This document shows positions 12,533 through 16,097 of a stretch of DNA of 64,000 nucleotides, piece by piece. Source of the DNA: Geoglobus acetivorans. Its GTDB lineage: Archaea > Halobacteriota > Archaeoglobi > Archaeoglobales > Archaeoglobaceae. A program made the position numbers and the translations under genes. Position 1 is the stretch's first letter, and every line of letters begins with the position of its first letter. The notes under the pieces were generated by a model. That model was not told the DNA's origin. It made no database searches and was given only the letters and a program-made list of their open reading frames with translations. The stretch is taken from NCBI RefSeq assembly GCF_000789255.1, contig NZ_CP009552.1, positions 1,116,001-1,180,000 of the forward strand, in the 5' to 3' direction.

Positions 12533-13108
12533 TCAGCTTTCAATGCCGAATTTGTCCGGGAAAATCTTTTTGTCCTGGTGAATTCTGAGAAAATCAGTCC
12601 CATGGCAGTCCTTGCAGCCCACACCCCTGCTCAGGTGTATCTTCAGCAAATTGCCATTGCTCGGCTCAAAGGGGTCAGGATATGCATGGCAAGAACCACA
12701 GTCCATTTTCTCGAGATCATAATCCACATGGCACTTGGTGCAGTCCGAGTATTTTGAGTGGTGAAGATTGCCCAGCTCTCTGACCACGTCATCACCCTTG
12801 GTATGGCAGTACTGGCAGAATTCTGTACCGTCCAGATGTCCCTCGACCTTGTCCGCCTGCGGAACATACTGTCTCTTGCTGTTCAGATGGCAGTTTTCAC
12901 AGACTGGACCTTCCAGTTCCGGAGCAGTGCTTCCATAGTCTGTACCGGTCTCTGGAGCAGGAGTTGGAGTCACAGACTTCTGAACATCACTGAGGGGAGT
13001 CTGTTCTGGGACAGGAGTTTTCTCTGGGGCTTTTTCATAGCTCTGGGAGCACATTGGTACAACAACTGCGAGCACTATGACAAAAAATAAAAGAGTGGTT
13101 CGTTTCAT
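12533..13108 (-). CDS. Five-haem c-type cytochrome lipoprotein
   Basis: 191 residues. The signal peptide ends with a lipobox-like VVVPMC, so the mature protein is probably lipid-anchored outside the cell. A Pro/Thr-rich linker (about 25-65) precedes five CXXCH haem motifs: CENCH, CQYCH, CTKCH, CGSCH, CKDCH. The haem domain ends GCKDCHGTDFLRIH, parallel to the neighbouring gene, so the two are tandem paralogues. A role in extracellular electron transfer or as partner of a terminal reductase is inferred. No membrane oxidoreductase is adjacent. Confidence 0.88.
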   Translation of the reverse strand: MKRTTLLFFVIVLAVVVPMCSQSYEKAPEKTPVPEQTPLSDVQKSVTPTPAPETGTDYGSTAPELEGPVCENCHLNSKRQYVPQADKVEGHLDGTEFCQYCHTKGDDVVRELGNLHHSKYSDCTKCHVDYDLEKMDCGSCHAYPDPFEPSNGNLLKIHLSRGVGCKDCHGTDFLRIHQDKKIFPDKFGIES

Positions 13109-13124
13109 ACTCTATTCTCTGGGA

Positions 13125-13709
13125 TTACTCCACAAAGGAGTCTGCTGCCGTGTGCAGACCGGAGACATCCGTTCCGTGGCAGACCGTACAGTACTTGCCT
13201 CTTGGCAGGTGGATGTTCACAAGGTTGCCGTAGCTTGGCTTTGTGGCATCAGGATAGGCGTGGCAGTTCTCACAGACAGTTCTGCCCTCTTCGATGGGCT
13301 TGGGTATCTGTATGTTGTCAGGAGGACCGTGACAGACACTGCACTCAAGGTTGATTGTTCCTGGGCCAACGTGGATCGTATGCGGGTTGCTGCCGTGGCA
13401 GTTAGCACAGTACTGGCCACCATTGACATGAGGCTTGTAGTCTGTGGACTTGGTGTGGCAGACCGTACACTCCACCAGTGGTGAGCTTGCCTCGACTTTC
13501 TTGGGTGTCGGCGTTGGAGTCGGTGTGGACTTCTTCTCAGGGGTAGGAGTTGGTTTAGGTGTCTTCTCTTCCTTTGGTTTCGGAGTCGGAGTTTTCTCCA
13601 CAGTTTTTGCTGGAGTTGGAGTTGTCTTTGCTTCCTCCTGCTGGGCACAGCCGAGAACAAGAACGCCCAGCACAAAGAGAGCCAAGAGAATAACAATTCT
13701 TCTCTTCAT
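13125..13709 (-). CDS. Five-haem c-type cytochrome lipoprotein with Pro-Thr linker
   Basis: 194 residues from ATG 13709 (an upstream start at 13742 would place a stray segment before the signal peptide). Lipobox VLVLGCAQQ gives Cys at about 21. A long low-complexity linker of Thr, Pro and Lys (about 26-80) precedes five CXXCH sites: CTVCH, CANCH, CSVCH, CENCH, CTVCH. Same haem order and C-terminal HLPRGKYCTVCHGTD block as the downstream paralogue 16 bases away, so they are one operon. The linker probably carries the haem domain away from the membrane. Confidence 0.88.
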   Translation of the reverse strand: MKRRIVILLALFVLGVLVLGCAQQEEAKTTPTPAKTVEKTPTPKPKEEKTPKPTPTPEKKSTPTPTPTPKKVEASSPLVECTVCHTKSTDYKPHVNGGQYCANCHGSNPHTIHVGPGTINLECSVCHGPPDNIQIPKPIEEGRTVCENCHAYPDATKPSYGNLVNIHLPRGKYCTVCHGTDVSGLHTAADSFVE

Positions 13710-13815
13710 GATGATAACTGTAAGTGAGATATATATTAACATTGCGCTATTTAATCGATGACGGGCTGGATGACCGGTTCCGGAAAACCCTCAGCACCCG
13801 GAATCCCACAGCCCT

Positions 13816-14502
13816 TCAGATCAATTCTGATTCAAGGAATACCTCGATCCCCGATGAAGATATGGCATACGGCCTTGGAATGCGCATGTGTGCCCTTCTC
13901 CTCATCTTCAGAACCTCGATTGCAAGTGTGGCCTCTTCAAGCTCGTTTTCCCTGTATATTCTCATAGAGATCATTCCGTCAGAGACATATTCGAGGATGC
14001 CAAACTTTGACCTGAGGGGGTTATCCTTATCGCACTCAGAAGTGACCACTGCAGTGGCGTTTATCGATTTCAGAAGGCCTCTTAGTTTTGAGAGGAAGGA
14101 GTACCTTCCTGCATCATCAAAGAGTGTTTCCAGAACTGTTATGGAGTCCACGAGTATCCTTGCTGGCATTATCTTTTCGAACATGTGTCTGAGTTCATTT
14201 TCAAAACTTTCAAATCTCTTCTTGACCTCAAGAGGGTCGAGTTTTATAACCTGTATGCTTCCACCGCCCGATGAAAAGTCCATGCCATAGTTTTCTGCTG
14301 TGGCCAGAATGCTCTCCTCATCCTCGTCGAAACTTATGATCAGACAGCTATCACCCTCTGAGAAGCCCTCATTTATAAAATGCAACCCCAGGGTCGTCTT
14401 ACCTGTCCCAAAAAATCCGATTACCGAAACAAAATAGCCTTCGGGGATTCCTCCTCCAAGCATGGCATCCAGTCCCCGTATTCCCGTGGAAAGCAACCTC
14501 AT
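13816..14502 (-). CDS. KaiC-like RecA-superfamily ATPase, active member
   Basis: 228 residues, single KaiC domain. Intact Walker A GFFGTGKTT (Lys at about 35) and Walker B ILVDSITVL. The start at ATG 14502 overlaps the TGA of the upstream gene (ATGA), indicating translational coupling. Archaeal KaiC-like proteins are linked to signal transduction and motility. Here the protein is the only one of three consecutive relatives with a full nucleotide site, so it probably supplies the ATPase of a mixed assembly (inference). Confidence 0.85.
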   Translation of the reverse strand: MRLLSTGIRGLDAMLGGGIPEGYFVSVIGFFGTGKTTLGLHFINEGFSEGDSCLIISFDEDEESILATAENYGMDFSSGGGSIQVIKLDPLEVKKRFESFENELRHMFEKIMPARILVDSITVLETLFDDAGRYSFLSKLRGLLKSINATAVVTSECDKDNPLRSKFGILEYVSDGMISMRIYRENELEEATLAIEVLKMRRRAHMRIPRPYAISSSGIEVFLESELI

Positions 14503-15245
14503 CACAGCACCCTCTCATACTGCGTGACCATGAAGCCCGCCGCAGGATCAAACCTTATCTTCATGCGGGTGATATTTTCTCTCTCGAGATGAGGCAAAAG
14601 ACCGGAAAGCTTTCTGAAATACAGCCACCTTTCCATGCTTCCCTGCTTACCCCACTCAAAAAACATTATTCCATCAGAGATGCTGAGGAAAAGGTTCTGA
14701 TACTGCTCTGAAATGACTCCCTTCGTCATCAAAATCACCACCAGAACGCTCTTTCTCAGGGCGATTTTTCTCAGGCCGTGTATCATGGCAAGAATATCTC
14801 CAACATCATACTTCCCAGGAATTCTGAGAAGGTCCGTAAGTGAATTCAGAACAAGCACAGTATTTTCCTCAATCGCATCAACCTGATTTGCCAGTTCGCT
14901 CAAGAGATCTCCTTCCCCCTTCAAATCCTCCAGATCCGGTTCTTTACCAAGCACCCACCTTACTGGTATGCATGTACCCTTGAAGTAGAACCTGTCAAGA
15001 CTCACGATCTGGAGCTTTTTCGCAATTCTGTTGAAGCTCTCATCCGAAAAGTTCATCTGAAGCTCTTTTAAAATCTCCTCCCCGGATTCAGATATCGAGA
15101 TTATCTTGAGATTCTTGTCGGTGTTTTTCATCAGTAAGTAATATGCAAATTCCTTCCCCCCTGCTCCCGGTTCCTCGATTACATAATTAAGCCCCTCATT
15201 CAGTCCGCCAAATCTATCAATTATCTCTATGCCAGTTCTGAACAA
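14502..15245 (-). CDS. KaiC/RecA-like protein with degenerate P-loop
   Basis: 247 residues. The opening TGIEIIDRFGGLNEGLNYVIEEPGAGGKEF aligns with the KaiC start, but the Walker A is changed: the first Gly is Glu and the final Thr/Ser is Glu. The Walker B Asp is replaced by Asn (VLVLNSLTDLL). It should not hydrolyse ATP normally and may be a regulatory or structural partner. Middle gene of the three-gene operon, ends overlapping its neighbours. Confidence 0.75.
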   Translation of the reverse strand: MFRTGIEIIDRFGGLNEGLNYVIEEPGAGGKEFAYYLLMKNTDKNLKIISISESGEEILKELQMNFSDESFNRIAKKLQIVSLDRFYFKGTCIPVRWVLGKEPDLEDLKGEGDLLSELANQVDAIEENTVLVLNSLTDLLRIPGKYDVGDILAMIHGLRKIALRKSVLVVILMTKGVISEQYQNLFLSISDGIMFFEWGKQGSMERWLYFRKLSGLLPHLERENITRMKIRFDPAAGFMVTQYERVL

Positions 15246-15821
15246 TTACCTCACCTCTATCAGCGAATCACACAGAAGAGAGAGCTGGGAGAGATGCTGG
15301 GGATCGATCTCATTCTCCAGAACAGTAATGACACAGAACGTTCCGTGGATTCTTGTCTTCCCGGTAAGCTGCCTCAGAAACTTAACCAGCGATTCCTGAG
15401 ACTTGTACAAAGTAAATGTCGAAAGGGAATCTATGTACACGAACTTAAAATCCGAATTCAGCTCTCTGAGAAGTCTGTCAACCGTCACTATAACCTGAAC
15501 AGGGTTTGGGGATTCCAGAAAAACATACCTCGGGTCTTCCAGCTCGTGGCCTCCAAACTGCCTTGTATTGCAATCAACATACCTGATATTCTCAGTGAAA
15601 ATCCCGGCTTTCCTGAGCTGTTTATCCAGAGAGGCACAGGGTTTATTGAGAGCAATATATATTCCCTCTCCTGCCGCCGTTAAGAGCCTCATGACCTCGT
15701 TTAAAGCTTTGAAGTATAGAGACGGCGCTACATTCAGCAGAACAACTTCTTTTTCAGACTTGATATTGCTGAAAAGCTTATTTCCGAGGGCTTTGACAGA
15801 GTTCACGGACAGCTCAGACAT
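15246..15821 (-). CDS. RecA-like protein lacking a P-loop, first gene of the KaiC-like operon
   Basis: 191 residues from ATG 15821, preceded by GTTGAGGGT as ribosome site. The sequence keeps a Walker-B-like strand FVYIDSLSTF near residue 135 and the overall RecA/KaiC order, but where Walker A is expected it reads LLNVAPSLYFKA with no GK[ST]. It resembles the degenerate RecA-like proteins that accompany archaeal signalling ATPases. It directly abuts the next gene. Confidence 0.65.
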   Translation of the reverse strand: MSELSVNSVKALGNKLFSNIKSEKEVVLLNVAPSLYFKALNEVMRLLTAAGEGIYIALNKPCASLDKQLRKAGIFTENIRYVDCNTRQFGGHELEDPRYVFLESPNPVQVIVTVDRLLRELNSDFKFVYIDSLSTFTLYKSQESLVKFLRQLTGKTRIHGTFCVITVLENEIDPQHLSQLSLLCDSLIEVR

Positions 15822-16023
15822 ACCCTCAACCCCATGCTGAGAGGTAGCGGGCACGATTGCCCTGCATGACCCTCACATTTGACTTGTTACCAGCGGTATT
15901 TGCTCCGTGTCGTGTTATAGCATGAACCATCGCTAAAAAATTTATACTGTAGTATTTAAAATAATCGGCAAAAATACACCAAACGTAGATTATATAAACC
16001 CAGTTCAGCTTGAACTTCAGCAG

Positions 16024-16097
16024 GGGGCCGTAGGGTAGCCTGGTTATCCTTCCATCTTGGGGGGGTGGAGACCCGAGTTCAAGTCTCGGCGGCCCCA
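16024..16097 (+). tRNA. tRNA-Pro (anticodon GGG)
   Basis: Acceptor GGGGCCG pairs with CGGCCCC, discriminator A; T-arm GAGTTCAAGTCTC; anticodon loop TTGGGGG between CCATC and GGTGG. CCA is not encoded. TATA ATTATATAAA lies about 26 bases before the expected 5' end of the precursor (about 16020). Confidence 0.95.

Follow-up and report, generated by a model that had tools for sequence, protein, structure and literature searches.

KaiC-like proteins are abundant in archaea, and the function of most of them is obscure. One of the better placed for comparison with the locus described here is ArlH, a KaiC-like hexamer which binds ArlI while unphosphorylated and leaves it once autophosphorylated, according to the accessible part of PMC8978795. 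Archaeal type IV pilus loci have several KaiC families associated with them, according to the accessible part of PMC4858521, which also raises possible co-transcription of arCOG01172 and arCOG01173 with VirB11/TadC genes in Methanomicrobia. Inactivated forms are described as well: DUF835 is presented, in the portion of PMC5847659 at hand, as an inactivated KaiC output domain of response regulators.

The locus lies in a 64-kb window (the whole stretch of DNA analysed) of the Geoglobus acetivorans genome, which is a single contig of 1,860,815 bases. It consists of three consecutive minus-strand ORFs, here called C, B and A (Table 1). An earlier note made from this DNA had described three consecutive RecA/KaiC-like genes, one with intact Walker A and B motifs, one with both altered and one with a Walker-B-like strand only, and both the arrangement and the motifs are as it described. 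It also had the genes overlapping, which holds for B and A; C and B abut with no overlap. We favor a reading in which an active KaiC (A) and a pseudo-ATPase (B) form an ArlH-like switch on a type IV pilus motor, and in which C and a fourth gene, D, would serve Archaeoglobi as input modules. We give this reading a probability of roughly 45%.

Table 1. Features of the C-B-A locus and its borders, in positions of the window.
Feature	Position	Strand	Description	Basis
Cytochrome pair	12533..13742	-	two tandem pentaheme lipoprotein-like cytochromes downstream of A, 5 CxxCH motifs each	PF14522
Gene A	13816..14505	-	KaiC-like ATPase (KaiC_arch_3 type), 229 aa, intact ATP site	PF06745, TIGR03880, 19-row family alignment
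KMR motif of A	13900..13908	-	residues 200-202, invariant	19 rows
Walker B strand of A	14128..14160	-	RILVDSITVLE, residues 116-126; R116, D120, E126 invariant	19 rows
Walker A of A	14395..14418	-	GFFGTGKT, residues 30-37; G30, G35, K36, T37 invariant	19 rows
B stop/A start overlap	14502..14505	-	4 nt, GTGA	sequence
Gene B	14502..15245	-	predicted inactive KaiC-fold protein (pseudo-ATPase), 247 aa	fold, phylum-wide family
Walker-B-like strand of B	14829..14858	-	VLVLNSLTDL, residues 130-139	alignment
Altered P-loop of B	15147..15176	-	EEPGAGGKEF, residues 24-33; GAGxxEF conserved in Archaeoglobi, in methanogens and in other families	
Gene C	15246..15821	-	predicted inactive KaiC-fold protein of DUF7504 type, 191 aa, without P-loop	PF24336, fold, DUF835
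Walker-B-like strand of C	15399..15443	-	FVYIDSLSTFTLYKS, residues 127-141; D131, S132, L133, S134, T135, Y139, K140, S141 invariant	14 rows
tRNA-Pro(ggg)	16024..16097	+	upstream boundary of the gene set	

The start of C could also be placed at an open GTG at 15854, and the family alignment favors the ATG used in the table. The immediate neighbors of the set are the cytochromes and the tRNA, and arlI/arlJ are not adjacent. In each of the five Geoglobus loci read, the set is bounded upstream by this tRNA (for example L033:7168-7241). A scan of bacterial type for promoters and terminators, unsuited to an archaeon, returned matches at the level of shuffled sequence only.

Gene A scores 158.1 bits against PF06745 (Pfam cut-off 26.6) and 237.9 bits against TIGR03880 (KaiC_arch_3), slightly below that model's cut-off of 249.45; two methanogen relatives lie above it, at 343 and 357.7 bits. 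Its match to Elp4 (PAXNEB, PF05625), at 24.4 bits, falls under the gathering score of 28. It holds a single KaiC domain and so differs from the circadian KaiABC type, which has two in tandem. The KMR motif of A aligns with that of KaiC, where the motif presumably acts in trans. Judged by motifs, A is the only one of the three proteins predicted to keep a working ATP site.

Gene B has no Pfam match above cut-off. Its AlphaFold model, built from the family alignment, has a pLDDT of 90 and the KaiC/RecA fold, with a best Z of 22.1 to KaiC 7s65 (rmsd 2.5, 203 aligned) and 21.5 to FlaH 4yds (rmsd 3.1, 214 aligned). The P-loop Lys and Thr/Ser expected of a KaiC-like ATPase are not provided by its GAGGKEF. 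Eighteen B proteins, taken from Archaeoglobi, methanogens and other families, align with GAGxxEF in place of GxGKT[TS]; they share a YFxxSxVPxxW motif and, on the Walker-B strand, DSLTDL, whose Asp in most relatives is Asn in the window genome. Just the Lys of the KMR motif is kept. At E <= 1e-5 the B profile has hits in 234 of 392 genomes from the phylum; the weakest hits, at about 1e-6 to 1e-10, probably represent other paralogues of KaiC. Compared profile to profile, B and A align moderately (probability 81). Sequence comparison thus indicates that B is an ancient, separate, phylum-wide family with GAGxxEF as its P-loop. A scan with the window's B, a weak test, found no viral relatives.

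Gene C has no P-loop and retains YIDSLST. It matches DUF7504 (PF24336) at 33.1 bits, above the gathering score of 27, and a limited literature search found no publication on DUF7504. Against DUF835 (PF05763) the window's C reaches 19.5 bits, below the gathering score of 33.1, and all 14 aligned members of the C family match DUF835, weakly, at E <= 0.01. Elp4 (PF05625) is matched at 16 bits, under its gathering score of 28. The AlphaFold model, again from the family alignment, has a pLDDT of 88 and the KaiC/RecA fold (best Z 14.1 to 2dr3, rmsd 2.9, 170 aligned), and the best structural matches include the Elp456 subcomplex (4ejs, Z 13.1, rmsd 2.9, 160 aligned). The chain stops before the KMR hairpin. 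The fold comparisons bear on a test the earlier note had set itself, that family searches might place the second and third proteins outside the RecA fold; both fall inside it, by the Z scores of 22.1 and 14.1.

In the class Archaeoglobi the cassette often has a fourth member and reads D-C-B-A; D, encoded just upstream of C, is another KaiC whose P-loop is intact. Strong matches (E <= 1e-35) to B were found in 37 of the 59 class genomes, C is strong in 30 and D in 22. Their presence is nested, since all genomes with D have C and all with C have B, and A adjoins B in the fetched Archaeoglobi loci with strong B. Two genera of the class have B-A without C and D. The nesting and these two genera together suggest that B-A is the core and that C and D are additions. 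Among the five Geoglobus loci D stands between the tRNA and C in one (genome G026), and it is absent from the window genome. The window's triplet is therefore a reduced form of the four-gene set, from which this species lost D. The triplet, whose conservation the earlier note had asked about, is conserved in Archaeoglobi, by the same counts for B and C. One further genome, G021, carries a broken copy of B, with stops within the contig (L059:895-1615) and an intact A adjoining it.

The picture of how the set arose also changes. The earlier note had seen a graded loss of the nucleotide site, with two partners evolved from the enzyme. The loss is not a local gradient, and a local origin from the enzyme is not supported: B is an old family found across the phylum and separate from A, and C belongs with DUF7504/DUF835 and has relatives in methanogens. 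Local duplication of A into B and C was considered and is unsupported, since B is phylum-wide and the C profile gives no significant alignment to the profiles of A, D or B.

Loss of an ATP site can also mean decay. On that account B and C would be functionless paralogues on their way out, and their lost P-loops and the broken B of G021 beside an intact A could be read so. We consider this close to nil, because all three genes are under strong purifying selection. Measured by the Nei-Gojobori method against a close Geoglobus genome (G025), dN/dS is 0.011 for A, 0.060 for B and 0.017 for C, and both B and C have invariant positions outside the ATP site. The selection test refutes the decay account of the lost ATP sites.

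The closest association in the set is that of A with B. Among 167 genomes, 69 (from 35 genera) have both, none has A only, two have B only and 96 have neither (Fisher p about 3e-45, a statistic that ignores shared descent). One genome, G188, has 179 bits to the A profile and no strong B; it was counted as A-negative because its score is intermediate, and a looser cut would make it a case of A without B. The two genomes with B only, G173 and G195, belong to a genus that includes G277, where a divergent A comes right after B. Gene order agrees with the counts. B is followed by A in 15 of the 20 fetched loci outside the class. A search with B alone gave 69 named Methanomicrobiales loci. Of the 67 that have at least 0.9 kb of downstream sequence, 66 show A following B on that strand, usually by 3 bp; the sole miss is L187, and L230 has too little of B to score. 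The two genes also co-occur where they are not neighbors, as 9 of the 37 A copies with a checked distance lie more than 120 kb from B or on other contigs. Genomes that are probably haloarchaeal, by their families and GC content, keep both A and B, unlinked. In some of these the place after B is taken not by A but by a gene for a coiled-coil protein, about 290-314 aa long (L123:7717-8589, L127:7129-8073). Two genomes, G080 and G129, have two B-A pairs each, one with an adjacent PilB and one without.

Because A and B co-occur across the phylum, they are very probably dedicated partners. The earlier note had proposed a dedicated complex of all three proteins, and this co-occurrence supports it for A and B.

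The form of such a complex is a separate matter. The earlier note had a mixed ring in view, for which RAD51-paralogue and Elp456 rings offer a model in which A, B and C would alternate in one hexamer, the dead subunits setting the geometry of the active ones. The three proteins share a fold, C has Elp456 among its best structural matches, and the C/B and B/A junctions are translationally close, all of which suits a mixed ring. Against it, A alone has all the catalytic parts, little of the trans KMR motif is left in B, and the chain of C stops short of the hairpin that would carry it, which makes a mixed catalytic ring less likely; C is moreover missing from the 20 B loci read outside the class and from two genera inside it. 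We regard the mixed ring as improbable, and prefer a ring made of A to which B attaches.

A candidate output for the A-B pair is seen in methanogens. A T2SSE-family ATPase and a T2SSF-family membrane protein are divergent from B in 11 of the 20 fetched loci outside the class, and in NCBIfam these neighbors match best to the archaellum motor FlaI and to ArlJ/FlaJ, with scores short of the equivalog cut-offs. A FlaI/PilB-like ATPase lies divergently upstream of B in all 55 Methanomicrobiales loci with at least 2.5 kb of upstream sequence. More widely, of 111 B places listed from outside the class, 64 have PilB within 5 kb, on the opposite strand in all 64; these places span 10 families and 26 genera. 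When PilBs were ranked by similarity to a seed set, 61 of the first 63 were adjacent to B and 3 of the next 54 typed; this ranking is partly circular, as the seed set was itself B-linked, and the synteny is not. B is present in 51 of 114 PilB-positive genomes outside the class and in 1 of 25 PilB-negative ones, counts that carry no correction for descent. Genomes G015 and G035 keep PilBs without a strong B, so B is not needed for every PilB. Taken together, the linkage makes a pilus output in methanogens a reasonably likely role for the pair.

For the window's species the case is thinner. A search of 41 loci, from Archaeoglobi and the window, found neither PilB nor TadC near the set. Away from the set, the window genome encodes five ATPases of PilB/FlaI type, including one that adjoins its ArlH. 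A tree of PilBs places every Archaeoglobi sequence outside the main B-linked clade, and we accordingly assign the window no cognate PilB. That clade also excludes the B-linked PilBs of three other families, found in G066, G080 and G387. A PilB partner in Archaeoglobi was thus sought by neighborhood and by tree, and none was found. In G001 a PilB lies about 10 kb from the set, which is not so in G000, G014, G020 and G023, and this was given no weight. A pilus output in the window's own species is accordingly a tentative proposal, somewhat under even odds.

Another possibility is that A and B, with C and D, form a general KaiC signaling hub for gene expression or cell state, comparable to CirA, in which case the pilus linkage in methanogens would be one output among others or a historical neighborhood. 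In Haloferax volcanii the KaiC homologue CirA alters motility, transcription and the shape of the cell, as stated in the accessible part of PMC13286277, and no PilB was found near A in the eight loci where A is unlinked from B (L297-L304, probably haloarchaeal). The strict divergent linkage to PilB/TadC weighs against a hub, as 10 families, 26 genera and 55 of 55 Methanomicrobiales loci go beyond a chance neighborhood. We hold the hub unlikely, yet the most substantial of the alternatives, and continue with the pilus switch. At the eight unlinked loci a universal-stress-like gene recurs, several have a HerA-like gene, and the A protein of several is extended at its N terminus by a long acidic stretch.

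Clues to the input come from relatives of C. At E <= 1e-16, and with Archaeoglobi counted, 59 of 294 genomes have distant relatives, in methanogens often as several copies. We read 20 loci of such relatives for the same-strand gene just upstream. In five of them it encodes a protein of one PAS cluster (three of the five were scanned with Pfam), and in another five a membrane-like protein of a single cluster (one scanned, with no family found). In four (L280, L281, L282 and L290; one scanned) the C relative ends a run of STAS, STAS, HATPase and HATPase/SpoIIE-like genes. The remaining six have none of the three. The STAS/HATPase run ending in a C-type gene resembles a partner-switching module, seen in methanogens. 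Since relatives of C adjoin sensor genes and DUF835 is an inactivated KaiC output domain, C may receive signals, and its role as an input adaptor is put at just short of an even chance. The earlier note had left both input and output blank. Each is now narrowed, the output to a type IV pilus ATPase/TadC pair by the methanogen linkage and the inputs to the PAS or STAS/HATPase modules beside the relatives of C.

The cytochromes downstream of A suggest a more local role. In all five Geoglobus loci read a same-strand cytochrome pair follows A, with gaps of 66-100 and 6-18 bp (73 and 16 bp in the window), and the set could on this basis serve iron respiration in Geoglobus together with the pentaheme pair. 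The same cytochrome family is unlinked to B in other Archaeoglobi genera, where it is often also a tandem pair, and it is present in G029, which has no strong B. A cytochrome link as a requirement for the gene set is thereby ruled out, and a role in iron respiration is very improbable. The pair is treated as a positional feature of Geoglobus and was not judged part of the switch.

The switch we propose would work as follows. A is a single-domain KaiC ATPase which probably forms its own hexamer. B would bind A, as their obligate co-occurrence and gene coupling suggest, and would act as its dedicated pseudo-ATPase partner, either an adaptor or a brake of the complex. The ATPase part and the docking or gating part would then be separate proteins. 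The nucleotide or phosphorylation state of A-B would decide whether the FlaI/PilB-like ATPase and the TadC/FlaJ platform assemble a filament. This action on a pilus motor is visible as gene linkage in methanogens; for the window we infer it, as we do contact between A and B, contact with PilB and any regulation through them. Archaeoglobi would have added C upstream, likely as a receiver of signals from sensors encoded elsewhere, and D, with its intact P-loop, which was later lost in the window's species. A bolder version, which we think doubtful as a whole, would make the obligate pair of A and the GAGxxEF pseudo-KaiC an ancient switch of the phylum that directly gates the type IV pilus motor, and would see in the Archaeoglobales set a four-gene, all-KaiC stack (two ATP sites intact, two not) in which C is connected to sensors and a single fold provides the input, the clock-like ATPase and the output.

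An enzyme and pseudo-enzyme pair that is kept or lost together across a phylum, and that stands beside a pilus motor in methanogens, offers a concrete partner and output for testing. The pair is accessible to study through Haloferax genetics and cultured methanogens. B also poses the question of how a RecA-fold protein works with no ATP site and a fixed, altered loop.

Links of KaiC proteins to pili and inactivated KaiC domains are known already. The pseudo-P-loop family, the co-occurrence of A and B and the D-C-B-A set were not found in a limited literature search, and part of this may already be described. The accessible text of PMC4858521, within that search, has no mention of the lost P-loop of B, of the A-B co-occurrence or of the four-gene set. 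As a separate observation, the window's own genome has another KaiC-like gene followed by a partner gene of about 155 aa (L070:7059-8392; G000:C1 about 1,338,060-1,339,390), and pairs of this type occur in 10 loci, divergent from conserved genes. A RadB identity for this paralogue was set aside, as NCBIfam shows none among the matches at E <= 1e-10.

Among the known systems, CirA of Haloferax volcanii is described in the accessible part of PMC13286277 as a KaiC homologue affecting motility and pilin genes. The iKaiC domains of archaeal response regulators (DUF835, MEDS; available portion of PMC5847659) are, like C, inactivated KaiC-like domains, there tied to sensors, whereas C and B are each a separate protein, encoded in one operon together with an active KaiC. 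The pilus-linked families such as arCOG01172 and arCOG01173 may include A or B; unlike the arrangement given in the accessible part of PMC4858521, B-A is divergent from PilB rather than co-directional with it. ArlH (FlaH) is the nearest comparison. The three proteins are distinct from it by family, as A and C reach 21.2 bits each against the ArlH model NF052589 (equivalog score 215) and B has no match, and an archaellum gene set is ruled out for this locus, the genome's own ArlH lying beside ArlI elsewhere (G000:C1:562864-565429). Like B, ArlH is a single-domain KaiC fold and is among the closest solved structures to it, and it acts beside a FlaI-type ATPase and a TadC/FlaJ-type platform, genes of the kind that B-A adjoins in methanogens. 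Where ArlH is one protein, the work here appears to be split between an active protein, A, and an inactive one, B.
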